A program made the translations under genes and the position numbers. The notes under the pieces were generated by a model. That model worked only from the letters and a program-made list of their open reading frames with translations. It did not search any database and was not told the origin of the DNA. DNA of 64,000 nt from Parafrankia discariae (GTDB taxonomy: Bacteria > Actinomycetota > Actinomycetes > Frankiales > Frankiaceae): NCBI RefSeq assembly GCF_000373365.1, contig NZ_KB891219.1:290123-354122 (forward strand), given 5' to 3'. Positions 7,073 through 60,388 of this stretch are shown one piece after another (the stretch's first letter is position 1; every line of letters starts with the position of its first letter).

Positions 7073-7866
7073 AAAGCGAGCAGGAGAAGGTCGGGCAGCA
7101 GGAGGTGTCCACGGGAGCGACCGACGGTCGCACCCGTGATCGCCTCGTGCGCCTCCTGCTCGAGCGCGGCCCGTCGACGGCCGCCGACCTCTCGCACGAG
7201 CTCGGGCTGTCGCCCGCGGCCGTCCGCCGGCATCTCGACGCGATGACCTCGGACGGCACCATAACGACCACATCGACCATGGTCCACGGCCGGCGCGGGC
7301 GGGGCCGCCCGGCCCGGCGCTACACCCTCACCGAGGCCGGGCACCAGGCCGGCCCCACGGCCTACTCCGACCTGGCCGCCGGCGCGCTGCTGTTCCTCGC
7401 GGACGCCTGCGGCCCCGACGCGGTGGCCGAGTTCGCTCGGGCCCGCGGCGTCGACCTGGAACGGCGGATCCGCGACGAGGTCGTCGCCGTCCCGCCGGCG
7501 GAGCGCCCGGAGGCGATCGCCGCGGCCATGACCCAGGCCGGTTACACGGCCAGCGTCTCCGAGCTGCCCAGCGGCACCCAGATCTGCCAGCACCACTGCC
7601 CGGTGCAGCACGTGGCCGAGCGGTTCCCCGCGCTGTGCGAGGCCGAGACGGCGATGCTGGCGCGGCTTCTCGACACGCACGTGCAGCGTCTCGCCACGAT
7701 CGCCCACGGCGACGGCGTCTGCACCACACACATACCGGTGATCCCGGTGGAGTCGATCACGGTGCTCTCGCCGTCGGGGGCCTGCGGGCCATCGGGCGCG
7801 GCGCCCGACAGGACCCCGTCCGGGCAGACATCACAACCATCCACCTTTCCGGAAGGTTCTCTATGA
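7069..7866 (+). CDS. sufR: Iron-sulfur-sensing repressor SufR
   Basis: 265-residue winged-helix regulator of the suf operon. The N-terminal DNA-binding domain spans roughly residues 20-90 ([36 protein letters not shown]). The C-terminal cluster-binding region has C173/C177, C190 (C177-X12-C190) and C218, matching the SufR pattern of cysteines that hold a [4Fe-4S] cluster; loss of the cluster relieves repression. The start is uncertain: GTG 7069 lacks a Shine-Dalgarno sequence and would be leaderless, an upstream ATG at 6988 precedes the operator, and a GTG at 7105 is possible. It overlaps sufB by ATGA. Confidence 0.92.
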
Positions 7867-10787: not shown

Positions 10788-11564
10788 GTGTCTGTTCTCG
10801 AGATCCGCAACTTGCACGTGTCGGTGGACACCGACACCGAGGGCCCGCGCGAGATCCTGCGCGGGGTCGACCTCACCGTCCGCAAGGGCGAGACCCACGC
10901 GATCATGGGGCCGAACGGCTCCGGCAAGTCCACGCTGTCCTACTCCATCGCCGGCCACCCCAAGTACACGGTCACCGAGGGCACCGTCACCCTCGACGGC
11001 GAGGACGTCCTCGCCATGGCGGTGGACGCCCGCGCGCGGGCCGGGATCTTCCTGGCGATGCAGTACCCGGTCGAGGTGCCCGGCGTCTCGGTGTCGAACT
11101 TCCTGCGCTCGTCGGCGACGGCGGTGCGCGGCGAGGCGCCGAAGCTGCGGACCTGGGTCAAGGAGGTCAAGCAGGCGATGGCCGGGCTGGAGATGGACCC
11201 GGCGTTCGCCGAGCGCAGCGTCAACGAGGGCTTCTCCGGCGGTGAGAAGAAGCGGCACGAGATCCTGCAGATGACGCTGCTCGCGCCGAAGGTCGCCATC
11301 CTCGACGAGACCGACTCCGGCCTGGACGTCGACGCGCTGCGCATCGTCTCCGCCGGCATCGAGGCGGTCCGGGCCAAGGGGGAGACGGGCATCCTGCTCA
11401 TCACCCACTACACCCGCATCCTGCGCTACGTGAAGCCCGAGTTCGTGCACGTCATGGCGGGCGGGCGGATCGTCGACGAGGGCGGCCCCGAGCTCGCGGC
11501 GACCCTGGAGGACTCCGGCTACGACCGGTACGTCAAGGGCACCGAGGCGGCGGCGATCTCATGA
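10788..11564 (+). CDS. sufC: Fe-S assembly ATPase SufC
   Basis: 258-residue ABC-type ATPase that drives conformational change in SufBD. Walker A GPNGSGKST, the SufC-type signature FSGGEKKRHEILQ and Walker B AILDETDSGLDVDALR are present. I chose GTG 10788 because CGAGGG lies about 11 nt upstream and the N-terminus (VSVLEIRNLHVSV) then matches the family; GTG 10776, overlapping the Rieske stop, would add four residues. Overlaps sufS by 4 bp. Confidence 0.96.
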   Translation: MSVLEIRNLHVSVDTDTEGPREILRGVDLTVRKGETHAIMGPNGSGKSTLSYSIAGHPKYTVTEGTVTLDGEDVLAMAVDARARAGIFLAMQYPVEVPGVSVSNFLRSSATAVRGEAPKLRTWVKEVKQAMAGLEMDPAFAERSVNEGFSGGEKKRHEILQMTLLAPKVAILDETDSGLDVDALRIVSAGIEAVRAKGETGILLITHYTRILRYVKPEFVHVMAGGRIVDEGGPELAATLEDSGYDRYVKGTEAAAIS

Positions 11565-12886
11565 CGGTCATCGAATCCCGTGAGGTGGGGGCCGTCACCG
11601 CCGCCGGCGCCGGGTTCGACGTCGAGCGGGTCCGCCGCGACTTCCCGATCCTCGCCCGCACCGTGCACGACGGCCTGCCGCTGGTCTACCTCGACAGCGC
11701 CGCGACGTCGCAGAAGCCGCTGGTCGTCCTCGACGCCGAGCGGACCTACTACGAGCGGCACAACGCCAACGTGCACCGCGGCATTCACGTGCTCGCCGAG
11801 GAGGCCACCGCCCTCTACGAGGAGTCCCGGGACAAGATCGCGGCGTTCGTCGGCGCGACCGACCGGCGCGAGATCGTGTTCACGAAGAACTCCTCGGAGG
11901 CGCTGAACCTCGTCGCCTACGCGATGAGCAACGCCGTCACGGGCGGTCCGGAAGCGGAGCGGTTCCGGCTCGGGCCGGGTGACGAGGTCGTCATCACCGA
12001 GATGGAGCACCACTCCAACCTGGTGCCCTGGCAGATGCTGTGCGCCCGCACCGGCGCCACCCTGCGCTGGATCGGCCTCACCGAGGACGGCCGGCTCGAC
12101 CTGGCGCACCTCGACGAGGTCATCACCGACCGCGCGAAGATCGTCTCGTTCGTGCACCAGTCGAACATCCTCGGCACGGTCAACCCGGTCGCGACGATCG
12201 TCGCCCGGGCCCGGGAGGTCGGCGCGCTCACCGTGCTCGACGGCTCCCAGTCGGTGCCGCACATGCCGATCGACGTCGTCGACCTCGGGGTGGACTTCCT
12301 CGCCTTCACCGGCCACAAGATGTGCGGGCCCACCGGCATCGGCGTGCTGTGGGGGCGGCGTGAGCTGCTCGAGGTGATGCCCCCGTTCCTCGGCGGCGGC
12401 GAGATGATCGAGGTCGTCACGATGGAGGCCTCGACCTACGCGGCCCCGCCGCACCGCTTCGAGGCGGGCACCCCGATGATCTCCCAGGCGATCGGCCTGG
12501 GCGCCGCGGTGGACTACCTCACCGGCCTCGGCATGGACGCGGTCGCCGCGCACGAGCACGAGATCACCGCGTACGCGCTCGACGCGCTCGCGGGCGTCCC
12601 GGGCCTGCGGATCATCGGCCCGCCGACCGCGGAGGGCCGCGGCGGGGCGATCTCGTTCGCGCTGCGCGACGACGAGGACCGCCCGCTGCACCCGCACGAC
12701 GTCGGCCAGATCCTGGACGAGCAGGGTGTCGCGGTGCGGGTCGGCCACCACTGCGCCCGCCCGGTCTGCCTGCGTTACGGCGTGCCGGCGACGACTCGGG
12801 CCTCGTTCCACCTGTACACGAACACCGCGGACGTCGACGCGCTGGTGGAAGGTCTCGGGCAGGTCAGGAGGTTCTTCCTGAAGTGA
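11561..12886 (+). CDS. sufS: Cysteine desulfurase SufS
   Basis: 441-residue PLP enzyme that takes sulfur from cysteine, releasing alanine and leaving a persulfide. The PLP lysine is K253 in FTGHKMCGP, and the persulfide-carrying cysteine is C398 in RVGHHCARPVC, the class II desulfurase context. The substrate-binding block TSQKPLVVLDA...YYERHNANVHRGIH is intact. Its partner is SufU, encoded immediately downstream with a GTGA overlap. Confidence 0.97.
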   Translation: MTVIESREVGAVTAAGAGFDVERVRRDFPILARTVHDGLPLVYLDSAATSQKPLVVLDAERTYYERHNANVHRGIHVLAEEATALYEESRDKIAAFVGATDRREIVFTKNSSEALNLVAYAMSNAVTGGPEAERFRLGPGDEVVITEMEHHSNLVPWQMLCARTGATLRWIGLTEDGRLDLAHLDEVITDRAKIVSFVHQSNILGTVNPVATIVARAREVGALTVLDGSQSVPHMPIDVVDLGVDFLAFTGHKMCGPTGIGVLWGRRELLEVMPPFLGGGEMIEVVTMEASTYAAPPHRFEAGTPMISQAIGLGAAVDYLTGLGMDAVAAHEHEITAYALDALAGVPGLRIIGPPTAEGRGGAISFALRDDEDRPLHPHDVGQILDEQGVAVRVGHHCARPVCLRYGVPATTRASFHLYTNTADVDALVEGLGQVRRFFLK

Positions 12887-19284: not shown

Positions 19285-20880
19285 GTGGCGGACCTTTTCG
19301 AGGGGTATCCGGTGGAGGTCGCGGCAGCGGCCGCCTGGGACGAGGTCTTCGACGCGGCGCATCGCCCCCGGGAGGTGTACACCGCCCTGCACGACGCGTT
19401 GCAGCCGCTGAGCAGCTCCGACCTGGCGGCCCGCAAGATCGCGCTCGACCGTGCCTTCCGGGACGCCGGCATCACCTTCAACCTGTTCGGCGAGGAGCGG
19501 CCGTTCCCGCTGGACCTGGTGCCCAGGCTGCTCTCCTGCGACGAGTGGGACGTCATCGAGCGGGGCGTGACCCAGCGGGTGCGTGCGCTCGAGGCGTTCC
19601 TCGACGACGTCTACGGGCGCGCCGACGTCCTCGCGGACGGCATCGTGCCCCGCCGGCTGGTGCTGTCCAGCTCGCACTTCCACCGGGCGGCGCACGGCAT
19701 CGACCCGCCGAACGGCGTCCGCGCGCATGTCAGCGGCATCGACCTGGTGCGGGACGAGCGCGGCCACTTCCGGGTGCTTGAGGACAACGTCCGGGTCCCG
19801 TCCGGGGTCAGCTACGTCATCGAGAACCGCCGCGCGATGACCCGGGTGTTCCCGGAGCTGTTCTCCACCCACCGGGTGCGCCCGGTCGCCGACTACGCCA
19901 CCCACCTGCTGCACGCGCTGCGCGCCGCGGCACCCCCGGAGGTCGCCGACCCGACCGTCGTGGTGCTCACCCCGGGCGTGTACAACGCCGCCTACTTCGA
20001 GCATGCACTGCTCGCCCGCCAGATGGGCGTCGAACTCGTCGAGGGCCGTGATCTCTCCGTCCGGAACAACCGGGTCACCATGCGCACCACCGAGGGTGAC
20101 CATCCGGTGCACGTGGTCTACCGCCGGGTCGACGACGACTGGCTCGACCCGCTGCACTTCCGTCCCGAGTCGATGGTCGGCTGCGCGGGTCTGCTGAACG
20201 CGGCCCGGACCGGGAACGTGACGATCGCGAACGCGGTCGGCAACGGGGTCGCCGACGACAAGCTGATGTACACCTACGTCCCGGACCTCATCCGTTACTA
20301 CCTCGGTGAGGAGCCGGCACTCGACAACGTCGACACCTTCCGGCTGGAGGACCCGGACCAGCGTGCCCACGTGCTGGACAACCTCGAGTCCCTGGTCGTC
20401 AAGCCGGTCGACGGCTCCGGTGGCAAGGGGATCGTGATCGGCCCGCAGGCCACCGAGGCCGAGCTGGTGGAGCTGCGCGCCCGGGTGCTCGCCGACCCGC
20501 GCGGGTGGATCGCGCAGCGGGTGGTGAAGCTGTCGACCTCGCCGACCCTGGCCGACGACCGCCTCGGGCCGCGCCACGTCGACCTCCGGCCGTTCGCGGT
20601 GAACGACGGGAACCGGATCTGGGTGCTGCCCGGCGGGCTGACCCGGGTCGCGCTGCCCCGTGGCAGCCTGGTCGTGAACTCCAGCCAGGGCGGTGGTTCG
20701 AAGGACACCTGGGTGCTCGCCCCCGAGCGGGTCGCACCGGAGGAGGCCGCGCTCCTGCGCCGGCGGTCCGGCCTGACGCAGGCGGTCGCCGCCGGGCCCG
20801 ACCTCGGCCCGCACTCGTCCGACGAGCAGCAACAACAGCAGTCCGAGCAGCAGAACCAGCAGGGGGGCGGGCTGTGCTGA
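19285..20880 (+). CDS. Circularly permuted ATP-grasp type 2 protein
   Basis: 531-residue member of the CP_ATPgrasp_2 (DUF404/DUF407) family, a predicted ATP-dependent carboxylate-amine ligase with permuted ATP-grasp fold. Recognisable blocks are VSGIDLVRDERGHFRVLEDNVRVPSGVSYVIENR, the basic KPVDGSGGKGIVIGP nucleotide-binding loop and RHVDLRPFAVNDG. It heads a three-gene set with alpha-E and transglutaminase-like genes that is widely conserved; a peptide- or polyamine-ligating role has been proposed but I know of no proof. Start is GTG 19285. The C-terminus ends in a glutamine-rich tail (about 11 Gln in 20 residues, 20821-20865) that looks like a slippage-prone repeat. Confidence 0.9.
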   Translation: MADLFEGYPVEVAAAAAWDEVFDAAHRPREVYTALHDALQPLSSSDLAARKIALDRAFRDAGITFNLFGEERPFPLDLVPRLLSCDEWDVIERGVTQRVRALEAFLDDVYGRADVLADGIVPRRLVLSSSHFHRAAHGIDPPNGVRAHVSGIDLVRDERGHFRVLEDNVRVPSGVSYVIENRRAMTRVFPELFSTHRVRPVADYATHLLHALRAAAPPEVADPTVVVLTPGVYNAAYFEHALLARQMGVELVEGRDLSVRNNRVTMRTTEGDHPVHVVYRRVDDDWLDPLHFRPESMVGCAGLLNAARTGNVTIANAVGNGVADDKLMYTYVPDLIRYYLGEEPALDNVDTFRLEDPDQRAHVLDNLESLVVKPVDGSGGKGIVIGPQATEAELVELRARVLADPRGWIAQRVVKLSTSPTLADDRLGPRHVDLRPFAVNDGNRIWVLPGGLTRVALPRGSLVVNSSQGGGSKDTWVLAPERVAPEEAALLRRRSGLTQAVAAGPDLGPHSSDEQQQQQSEQQNQQGGGLC

Positions 20881-32668: not shown

Positions 32669-33688
32669 GTGTTGGAGGAACGGCGGCTGGAGGTGCTGCG
32701 GGCGATCGTCGAGGATTTCGTGCTCAGCAATGAGCCGGTGGGATCCAAGACGTTGGCCGAGCGGCATGCTCTGGGCGTGTCGCCCGCCACGGTGCGTAAC
32801 GACATGTCGGCCCTTGAGGAAGAGGGCTACATCACCCAGCCGCACACCAGCGCGGGCCGTATCCCGACAGACAAAGGCTATCGCCTCTTCGTCGACCGGC
32901 TCTCCGGCGTCAAGCCGCTGTCGCGCGCCGAGCGCCGGGCCATCCAGAGCTTCCTGGAGGGCGCGGTCGATCTCGACGACGTGGTGCGGCGCTCGGTGCG
33001 CCTGCTCGCGCAACTCACACGTCAGGTGGCTGTGGTCCAGTATCCCTCACTCTCGTCCAGCAGCGTCCGCCACATCGAGATCGTCACGCTCAGCCCGAAC
33101 CGCCTGCTCCTGGTACTGATCACGGACACGGGCCGGGTCGAGCAGCGGGTGGTCGACATCCCCACCCCGGTCGACGACGGCGTGGTCGGTGAGCTGCGCG
33201 GCCTGCTGAACGGCTCGCTGCGGGGCCGCCGTGTGGTCGACGCCACAGAGGTCGCGGCGGACCTCCCCGAGACCGTCCGACCGGATCTGCGCGGGCACCT
33301 GACGACGCTCACCACCGTGGTGCTGGAGGCTCTCCTGGAACGGCAGGAGGAGCGGGTCGCGCTGGCCGGTACCGCGAACCTCACACGCTCCTCGGTCGAC
33401 TTCGCCGACTCGCTGCGGTTCATTCTGGAAGCACTTGAGGAGCAGGTCGTGCTCCTCAAACTGATCGGTTCAGTCCGGGAGACCGGTACTGTGACGGTGC
33501 GCATCGGGCGTGAGACGGATGTGGACGCCCTCCGCTCAACGTCGGTAATCGCCACCGGGTACGGTCTCGGCCCGGCGGTGCTGGGCGGAATGGGAGTCGT
33601 CGGCCCGATGCGGATGGACTATCCGGGAACGATGGCGGCCGTACGAGCCGTCGCCAAGTACGTGGGTGAACTCTTGGGTGCCGACTGA
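32669..33688 (+). CDS. hrcA: Heat-shock repressor HrcA
   Basis: 339-residue repressor. N-terminal winged helix ([68 protein letters not shown]) is the family signature; a GAF-like central domain and the C-terminal [21 protein letters not shown] follow. GTG 32669 is preceded by GAAGGGGG. It overlaps dnaJ2 by one base. CIRCE lies about 90 bp upstream, so it is self-regulated. Confidence 0.97.
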
Positions 33689-34830
33689 TGGCAGTGGACT
33701 ATTACGCGACGCTCGGTGTGCGGCGTGACGCCACCGGTGACGAGATCAAGCGGGCCTACCGCAAGCTGGCCCGGGAGCTGCATCCGGACGTCAATCCGGA
33801 CCCGGAGGCGCAGCAGCGGTTCAGGAACGTGACGAACGCCTACGAGGTCCTCTCGGACCCCGAGAAGCGGCAGATCGTCGATCTCGGTGGTGACCCGCTC
33901 GCGCCCGGTGGCGGCGCGGCCGGCGCCGGTTCGCCGTTCGGCGCAGGCTTCGGCGGCCTCGGCGACATCATGGACGCGTTCTTCGGCGGTGGCGCCAGCC
34001 GCGGCCCGCGCTCGCGGGTGCGCCGTGGGAACGACGCGCTGCTGCGCCTCGAGCTCGACCTGGCCGAGACCGCGTTCGGTGCCACCCGCGACATCACCGT
34101 CGACACGGCCGTGGTGTGCGCGACCTGCAGCGGCGGGGGCGCCGCGCCTGGCACGCAGCCGTCGACCTGCTCGACCTGCCACGGCCGCGGTGAGGTCCAG
34201 CAGGTGACCCGCTCGTTCCTCGGTCAGATGGTGACGTCGCGGCCCTGCCCGCGCTGTACGGGCACCGGAACGGTCATCGAGCACCCCTGCCGGGACTGCT
34301 CCGGTGACGGCCGCGTCCGCAAGCGCCGAACCCTGACGGTGAAGATCCCCTCGGGCGTCGAGGACGGCATGCGCATCCGGCTGTCCGGCGAGGGCGAGGT
34401 CGGCCCCGGCGGGGGGCCGCCCGGCGACCTGTACGTCGAGGTCTCGGAGCGGCAGCACGCCGTCTTCAGCCGGGAGGGTGACGACCTCCACTGCGATCTT
34501 CGCCTGCCGATGACCGCCGCGGCCCTGGGCACGATGGCCACGCTGGAGACCCTCGACGGTTCCGAGACGATCACGGTGAAGCCGGGCACCCAGCCCGGCG
34601 AGGTGCTCCGGCTCGCCGGGCGCGGTGTTCCGCACCTGCGCGCCGTGGGGCGTGGGCACCTGCACATCCACATCGTCGTCGAGACGCCGACGAAGCTCGA
34701 CGCCGAGCAGGAACGCCTCCTGCGGGAGCTGGCGAAGCTGCGTGAGGAGGAGACGCCGGCGGTGGTCGGCGGGTCCTCCGGCGGATCCGGCCTGTTCTCC
34801 CGGCGCCGTGGCGGTCGGCGCAACCGCTGA
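33688..34830 (+). CDS. dnaJ2: Chaperone DnaJ (second copy type, DnaJ2)
   Basis: 380-residue Hsp40 co-chaperone of DnaK. J-domain with HPD (ARELHPDVN), Gly/Phe-rich stretch, the zinc domain with four CxxCxGxG-type repeats ([32 protein letters not shown]) and the C-terminal substrate domain are in order. In actinobacteria the DnaJ encoded next to hrcA is DnaJ2; DnaJ1 sits with dnaK. Its stop overlaps the apparent rsmE start. Confidence 0.95.
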
Positions 34831-35576
34831 CCGCGCCCGTCTTCCACCTGGATCCGCTGCCGTCGACCGACGTCTTCGTGCTGGGTGGACCCGAGGGCCG
34901 GCACGCCGCGGCAGTGCGCCGGCTGCGGGTGGGTGAGCGCCTGGACGTCACCGACGGCGCCGGCGCCGCGCTGGAGTGCGAGGTCCGGTCGGTCGGCCGG
35001 GACGAGCTCGAATGCGTCGTCCTGAGCCGGCGGGCGCCGACCCGGGACGGGCCCCGGCTGGTGGTCGCGCAGGCCCTGGCCAAGGGCGACCGCGGGGAGC
35101 TGGCGGTCGAGATGCTCACCGAGATCGGGGTCGACGAGATCGTGCCCTGGGCGGCCGCGCGCTGCATCGTCCGCTGGGACGGCGAGCGTGGCGAGCGGTC
35201 GCGCGCGAGGTGGACCCGCACCGCCCAGGAGGCGGCCAAGCAGTCGCGCCGGCACGCCTGGCCGTTGGTCGGTCCGCTGGCGGGCACCGCGGCGCTGGCC
35301 GGGCGCGTGCGCCGGGCGTCGCTCGCCGTCGTGCTGCACGAGACGGCTACGACGCCGCTGGCCGGGCTCGCCCGCGCTCTGCCACCCGGGGCCGAGGCCG
35401 GGGAGATCCTGCTGGTGGTGGGCCCGGAGGGCGGCGTGGCCGATGGCGAGATCGAGGCGCTCACGGCCGCCGGCGCGGTGGCCGGCCGGCTGGGCCCGAC
35501 GGTGCTGCGGACGTCGACGGCGGGCGTGGTCGCGGCGGCCGTGGTACTCGCCGACATCGGTCGGCTGGGCGGATAG
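34827..35576 (+). CDS. rsmE: 16S rRNA m3U1498 methyltransferase RsmE, apparent CTG start
   Basis: 249-residue SPOUT methyltransferase that modifies U1498 of 16S rRNA. The PUA-like N-terminal domain ([34 protein letters not shown]) and the knotted C-terminal domain ([43 protein letters not shown]) are complete. No ATG, GTG or TTG occurs in frame between the upstream stop at 34743 and GTG 34878, which would delete the first strand of the PUA domain. CTG 34827 overlaps the dnaJ2 stop as CTGA, exactly like the GTGA and ATGA couplings of neighbouring genes. I take this as the start, with moderate confidence in the start and high confidence in the gene. Confidence 0.9.
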
Positions 35577-59963: not shown

Positions 59964-60388
59964 CCGCCGACGGGGCACGTCGCGGCAACACCCGTTTCGT
60001 CGTCGCGGGGCTGTTCGTGGCCTTCGTGCTCGCCGGTTTCGTGTCTGGCTACGCCAGCTCACGGCCGGACGGCCTGGAGAAGGTCGCCGCGGAGAAGGGC
60101 TTCCTCGGCCAGGCCGACGACCACGCCTTCGCGAACTGGCCGCTTGCCGACTACGCCGTATCCGGCATCGGCAACGAACGCCTCGCCGGCGGCGTCGCCG
60201 GCGTCATCGGAGTGTCGATCGCCTTCGTCGTCGGTGGCCTGCTCGTCTTCGGGGTGGTCCGGCTGCGGTCCCGCGGCGCCGGCCGCCCGGCGGCTCCGCC
60301 CGGTCACCACGGTCCGGACGATCCCGGTCCTGACGGTCCTGACGGTCCTGACGGTGCTGCGGGTGCCGGCGCGGCGCCCGTCGTCTGA
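59960..60388 (+). CDS. cbiN: PDGLE-domain membrane subunit (CbiN/NikN-like)
   Basis: 142-residue two-helix protein, GTG 59960 overlapping the cbiM stop. The periplasmic PDGLE motif is SRPDGLEKVAAEKGF. This subunit takes the place of CbiN/NikN between M and Q. The C-terminal tail after residue 108 is low-complexity (HHGPDDPGPDGPDGPDG) encoded by tandem 9-bp repeats. Confidence 0.88.
   Translation: MTADGARRGNTRFVVAGLFVAFVLAGFVSGYASSRPDGLEKVAAEKGFLGQADDHAFANWPLADYAVSGIGNERLAGGVAGVIGVSIAFVVGGLLVFGVVRLRSRGAGRPAAPPGHHGPDDPGPDGPDGPDGAAGAGAAPVV
60326..60352 (+). repeat. Three tandem 9-bp repeats
   Basis: GGTCCTGAC is present three times in a row within the 3' part of cbiN, giving PDG repeats in the protein; a diverged copy follows. 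The reading frame is kept because the unit is 9 bp. Confidence 0.85.

Follow-up and report, generated by a model that had tools for sequence, protein, structure and literature searches.

In Parafrankia discariae the gene for the 16S rRNA m3U1498 methyltransferase, rsmE, very probably begins at a CTG codon (positions 34827-34829, plus strand, of the 64,000-nucleotide stretch of DNA that was analysed, hereafter the window), a placement well supported by the codons found at the homologous position in relatives. The explanation that we favour as a whole, and hold with good confidence, is that rsmE would be translated from CUG 34827 and that this codon would be kept as a weak, fidelity-sensitive start, as it would be in two further genes, rsmH and ksgA. 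Its parts are all inferred from sequence comparison: the use of CUG as initiator, the weakness of that use, selection in favour of retaining it, and the extension to rsmH and ksgA; retention for the weakness of initiation is judged likely.

The rsmE reading frame (34827-35576) specifies 249 residues plus a stop and belongs to an hrcA-dnaJ2-rsmE run on the plus strand, which hrcA opens (32669-33688; NCBIfam TIGR00331, 310.4 bits) and dnaJ2 continues (33688-34830; NCBIfam NF010871, 595.8 bits). When the open reading frames were re-read, the frame of rsmE was found to be closed on its upstream side by an in-frame TGA (34743-34745, plus strand) and then to contain no ATG, GTG or TTG until GTG 34878-34880 (plus strand), just as the original prediction had stated. 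That prediction had also placed the start at CTG 34827, correctly noting that it shares bases with the dnaJ2 stop TGA (34828-34830, plus strand) as CTGA, and had likened the overlap to ATGA and GTGA couplings of the neighbouring genes. The likeness does not extend to the nearest junctions, hrcA/dnaJ2 (33688) and phoH/ybeY (36849), which are TGATG, with one base common to stop and ATG, but it does apply to candidate overlaps elsewhere in the window (ATGA at 7863, at 11561 and, on the minus strand, at 2458; GTGA at 12883, 13347, 41554, 61194 and, on the minus strand, at 60062).

Read from the CTG, the product is by family scores and domains an ordinary RsmE (306.8 bits against NCBIfam NF008693, cut-off 210, and 119.7 against TIGR00046, cut-off 41; in Pfam, a PUA-like N-terminal domain, PF20260, and a methyltransferase domain, PF04452), for which methylation of U1498 is predicted. 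It aligns from residue 2 onward with the solved structure 4l69, which we take to be RsmE of M. tuberculosis, and its structure model, made with 26 aligned relatives, has a mean pLDDT of 90.5 and strands at residues 5-7 and 16-19. Relative to known RsmE proteins (4l69, 4e8b), the protein would be of the usual kind and the difference would lie in the start codon alone.

Initiation at GTG 34878, the first canonical codon in frame, would give a protein 17 residues shorter, and two observations speak for it: a GTG lies at homologous codon 17 in all six Parafrankia genomes, and the truncated protein is still recognised by the family models (295.2 vs 306.8 bits). This GTG, however, falls inside the predicted strand 16-19, so that starting there would cut this strand and would delete strand 5-7, a loss of N-terminal structure that had been foreseen. 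Codons 1-16 are moreover conserved as protein, with pairwise differences in Parafrankia of 23/10/44 by codon position, a coding pattern, and with F6 identical in at least 90% of the 26 rows; and three other genomes with CTG (G007, G008, G022) have no canonical codon from the upstream stop until codon 28-29. A start at GTG 34878 is accordingly regarded as very unlikely, and the reading from CTG 34827 is retained.

The order was sampled with 35 genomes from seven genera, two of which (G025, G034) are cut by contig ends, leaving 33 readable. In 24 of these 33 the homologous codon reads CTG, namely in all six genomes of Parafrankia (g1), all 13 of Frankia (g2), the single genome of g4 and the four readable genomes of g6. 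The check that had been proposed, a search for ATG or GTG at that position in relatives, found neither in Parafrankia and these three genera, the codon being CTG in 24 of 24 readable genomes. In the nine remaining genomes a canonical codon starts the gene at or near the same place: the seven genomes of g7 have GTG at the homologous codon, or GTG or TTG one codon earlier, the single g5 genome has GTG, and the single g3 genome has TTG four codons upstream of the homologous place. Since the sister genus g7 has GTG or TTG there, and most other families ATG, GTG or TTG, the homologous position is taken as the start, and the relatives thereby mark CTG 34827 as the initiator of rsmE. A sequencing or assembly error that turned ATG or GTG into CTG, which had been raised as a possible refutation, is vanishingly improbable: nothing was found in its favour, and the same codon stands in independent assemblies, including five named records (L034-L038), four of which belong to Parafrankia (P. 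soli, P. colletiae, EUN1f, and EI5c, filed as Frankia sp.) and one to Frankia (Ca. Frankia nodulisporulans).

The surroundings of the codon leave little room for another start in these 24 genomes. In six of them (G001, G002, G004, G022, G023, G026) an in-frame stop is followed by one codon and then by the CTG, and an ATG, GTG or TTG within 25 codons upstream of the CTG occurs in one genome of the 24 (G018, GTG 22-23 codons upstream). Downstream, the next canonical codon is 4 to 29 codons away; a TTG or ATG is found at codon 4 of rsmE in eight of the 24 (seven of the 13 Frankia and G020), and in Frankia this codon lies 12 nt further from the Shine-Dalgarno motif than the CTG. In an RsmE tree of 82 rows, calculated with the first three codons left out, g1, g2, g4, g6 and g7 form one clade of 31 rows (SH-aLRT 98, quick method). 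Most simply, the CTG of Frankiaceae would have been gained once and would have returned once to a canonical codon in g7, which is nested in the clade; judged from these sequences, the CTG is not indispensable in the family, as g7 manages without it.

The comparison was extended to 63 records outside Frankiaceae, of which 59 represent 31 additional family codes in the class and four are named. An ATG, GTG or TTG lies between 25 codons before and 2 codons after the homologous place in 52 of the 63, and the 11 exceptions are ten records of family f19 and one of f7 (L085). Taken as a whole, f19 has CTG in 13 of its 22 genomes, some of which also have a GTG at codon 4; G105, G140, G211, G203 and G220 do not. 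In L085, one genome of a third family, rsmE seemingly begins at CTG two codons past the dnaJ stop, and the next canonical codon comes about 30 codons into the gene. Because CTG is found in f19, and seemingly in L085, besides Frankiaceae, sequence comparison indicates that the CTG start of rsmE arose more than once.

The CTG is found in two different contexts within Frankiaceae. In all six Parafrankia genomes it overlaps the dnaJ2 stop as CTGA, and a Shine-Dalgarno match is found in none of the six, the window included. The predicted coupling holds for this genus but not for the other Frankiaceae genera with CTG, where dnaJ2 ends 12-175 nt upstream of rsmE (Frankia 13/13, g4 1/1, g6 4/4). All 13 Frankia instead have a Shine-Dalgarno-like match of 4-5 nt placed 6-8 nt before the CTG, in ten of them as AGGA-N6-CTG; a match is present in three of four g6 genomes, at a spacing of 9-12 nt, and absent in g4. 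Under the proposed mechanism the ordinary initiator tRNA would read CUG 34827 as formyl-methionine. In Parafrankia a ribosome finishing dnaJ2 at UGA would reinitiate at the overlapping CUG without a Shine-Dalgarno motif; in Frankia, where the genes would have moved apart, the Shine-Dalgarno-like motif 6-8 nt upstream would take over while the start is still CUG. In both settings the codon would be retained because weak, fidelity-sensitive initiation of RsmE is favoured.

In Parafrankia the CTG also lies in the 3' arm of a predicted hairpin of 10 pairs (34811-34834, plus strand; loop 34821-34824), the 5' arm of which is dnaJ2 coding sequence. Compared with shuffled sequences over 100 nt the fold is not better (z -0.05), and among five distinct Parafrankia rows 96% of cells pair, with no compensatory change. 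A comparable hairpin was not seen in folds of three Frankia sites and one g6 site, so the hairpin cannot explain a conserved C everywhere. By burying the CTG in Parafrankia, this hairpin could make rsmE depend on dnaJ2 translation, which would unfold it and expose the masked CUG. The promoter/terminator scan and the tRNA scan were both empty.

Other CTG starts were sought by comparing the complete Frankia genomes G008 and G006 over the 800 kb that surround rsmE. From 390 reciprocal best pairs, 320 had a coding pattern, and 274 of these were also of gene-like composition; the criterion was conserved coding sequence upstream of the first canonical codon together with a shared CTG at the N-terminus. 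Forty-six pairs were flagged, and the 17 with the clearest coding pattern were inspected, of which 12 were shadow frames of longer genes, three had a canonical codon soon after, and two were rsmE and rsmH; seven further pairs were also read. The outcome of two genes is a lower bound, since for 188 of the 274 genes, which have at least five aligned codons before the first shared canonical codon, the starts are not settled by the test alone. A three-way comparison that included the window's contig covered 29 shared genes only and was uninformative. The second gene, rsmH (m4C1402 methyltransferase; G008, L174:2387-3370; TIGR00006, 296.3 bits), carries CTG, preceded by GGAGG-N7, in 13 of 13 Frankia; three other genera, with 16 genomes read, have GTG at the homologous codon (g1 6/6, g6 5/5, g7 5/5). 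An ATG lies three codons past this CTG in ten of the 13 Frankia, and G008, G009 and G016 have none. A separate observation from the same region is a small membrane-protein gene (G008, L178 position 19390, and its G006 counterpart) with a conserved GGAGGT-N6-ATA just before the coding region; the ATA may serve as an AUA start, although canonical codons come after it.

Directed checks were made on ksgA, infC and rsmI. The ksgA gene (G000, L317:1435-2325; TIGR00755, 203.3 bits) has a conserved CTG that sits in CCC TGG TAG/TAA, where a TatD-like gene (TIGR00010) ends, in g1 6/6, g2 12/12 readable (G015 is cut), g4 1/1 and g6 5/5, where G022 and G024 are partly masked and G022 is counted without a frame check. 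Between this CTG and the RGQNF motif there is no ATG, GTG or TTG in 15 genomes; the remaining CTG genomes have a canonical codon somewhere in that interval, or are masked there. The site is TTG in the three g7 genomes read, and the motif is missing from g3 and g5. Outside Frankiaceae ksgA has a canonical start in 27 of 29 loci, among them f19 genomes with a CTG in rsmE, and one locus is masked; in another, L365 (G061, f28), the 40 codons before the core hold one GTG only, ten codons before it and within the conserved part. As a positive control of a known kind of exception, infC (G000, L336:1495) was found to start with ATC, preceded by GGAGG, at all 30 Frankiaceae loci read; the infC gene of E. 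coli, for IF3, starts with AUU. For rsmI a canonical codon was present at all 30 loci read, in 28 of them as GTG or ATG at one place.

It may be asked whether the CTG is a relic of gene overlap rather than a codon that is kept. In Parafrankia dnaJ2 ends with the Arg codon CGC, whose third base is the C of the CTG; with A, G or T in its stead the DnaJ2 protein would stay the same and rsmE would begin with a canonical codon. By drift of this base to C the junction would have become CTGA; CUG would have sufficed as long as the genes were coupled, and nothing would since have reversed it. The f19 genomes fit such a history, as dnaJ ends within CTGA in all 13 with CTG and 16-434 nt upstream in the nine with ATG, GTG or TTG, and so does ksgA, whose start base occupies the third position of a Pro codon in the TatD-like gene; C is besides the commonest base at rsmE four-fold sites (0.46-0.52). 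Against it, the CTG persists in the 18 Frankiaceae genomes in which dnaJ2 ends upstream, and the CTG of Frankia rsmH has a Shine-Dalgarno motif of its own. Overlapping starts elsewhere also appear mostly to avoid CTG. The CTGA of Parafrankia (6/6) and f19 (13/22) has the same geometry as ATGA and GTGA coupling, but its codon is rare among the overlapping genes examined: the window holds three ATGA, five GTGA and one CTGA candidate junctions, the last being rsmE, so that eight of nine use ATG or GTG. Not included in this tally are three CTGATG junctions, where the start is ATG, and one apparent CTGA at 20877, where a GTG stands one codon upstream. In the 274 screened G008 genes 13 CTGA coincide with an upstream stop, two being CTGATG, ten lying outside the aligned part and the remaining one being GAT in G006.

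The conservation of the base itself bears on the same question. Four-fold columns were defined by first two codon bases identical in all 24 CTG genomes, and of 50 such columns in rsmE two keep one and the same third base, among them codon 1, which adjoins the start; a relic would leave unexplained why nearby sites are so seldom invariant while the start C does not vary over the 24 genomes. This invariance is suggestive, for one site, at about 0.04. In the last 180 codons of the TatD-like gene two of 62 four-fold columns are invariant over 24 genomes, with the same picture in 20, one being a CTG codon and the other the CCC that gives ksgA its CTG. If the start C of ksgA were changed, the overlapping gene would still encode the same protein and ksgA would have a normal start; such a normal start by synonymous change is seen neither in the CTG genera for ksgA nor in Parafrankia for rsmE. 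The argument has one site per gene, and the same degree of invariance is shown by 2 of the 50 columns in rsmE and by 1 of the 61 remaining columns that precede ksgA. On balance a mere relic of overlap seems unlikely, and retention of the CUG by selection remains our preferred reading.

If the CUG is retained for weak initiation, it could serve simply to hold a scarce enzyme at a constant low level, with no feedback. CUG is an otherwise poor start, as it was not enriched (0.03%) in a mycobacterial library with a Shine-Dalgarno motif (PMC4633059), and as CUG complexes of E. coli are described as unstable (PMC11497404). In S. aureus, expression from conserved AUA and AUU starts reached about 10% of the AUG level in poor medium and, for one of them, up to 30% in rich medium (PMC13009471), which agrees with a low fixed output. 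It would leave unexplained, nevertheless, why the CTG genes found are all 16S methyltransferases tied to start-codon fidelity, and a constant low level alone is held to be a doubtful account. The Staphylococcus genes cvfC1 and ccpN (PMC13009471) resemble the present case in having a conserved near-cognate start, with lowered initiation demonstrated there by reporters; they differ in using AUU or AUA with an extended Shine-Dalgarno motif, whereas here the codon is CUG, in high-GC actinobacteria, with no Shine-Dalgarno match in Parafrankia.

The enzymes in question modify U1498 (RsmE), C1402 (RsmH) and A1518/A1519 (KsgA) of 16S rRNA. A review reports that in E. coli a mutant initiator tRNA can initiate once RsmE or KsgA is deleted, which points to relaxed initiation, and it makes the same statement for RsmC, RsmF, RsmB and RsmD (PMC7949028). 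The KsgA and C1402 marks have been reported to lower non-AUG initiation (PMC7694415), and C1402 to contact the P-site codon (PMC5053481); the wording on C1402 differs between these two sources. Enzymes that make the P site strict would be encoded by genes beginning with a codon such a site rejects, and it is from this that a tentative conjecture arises for Frankiaceae, which we put forward as possible rather than probable: 30S subunits lacking the RsmE, RsmH or KsgA marks would start at CUG more readily and make more enzyme, and full methylation would tighten start selection and shut the loop. Together with IF3, with its ATC start, these genes would form a small regulon that senses P-site quality through its own start codons. 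Against the conjecture stand the normal start of rsmI, the product of which acts on the same C1402 as RsmH, the restriction of the rsmH CTG to Frankia, and the canonical start of ksgA in f19, where rsmE often has CTG. The nearest known counterpart is infC, which starts with AUA in S. aureus (PMC13009471) and likewise combines a conserved near-cognate start and a Shine-Dalgarno motif with a product that tightens start selection; infC is nonetheless a factor gene, whereas here the CUG is in rRNA methyltransferase genes and the feedback is putative. In the literature listings searched, no paper appeared that describes a CTG start for rsmE, rsmH or ksgA, although such a description may still exist in print.

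Gene finders restricted to ATG, GTG and TTG would misplace the N-terminus of these proteins. If it is true that a whole bacterial family has retained a CUG start in the genes of three enzymes that methylate the ribosome at the place of start-codon reading, the idea of rRNA methylation as a form of gene regulation would become testable.
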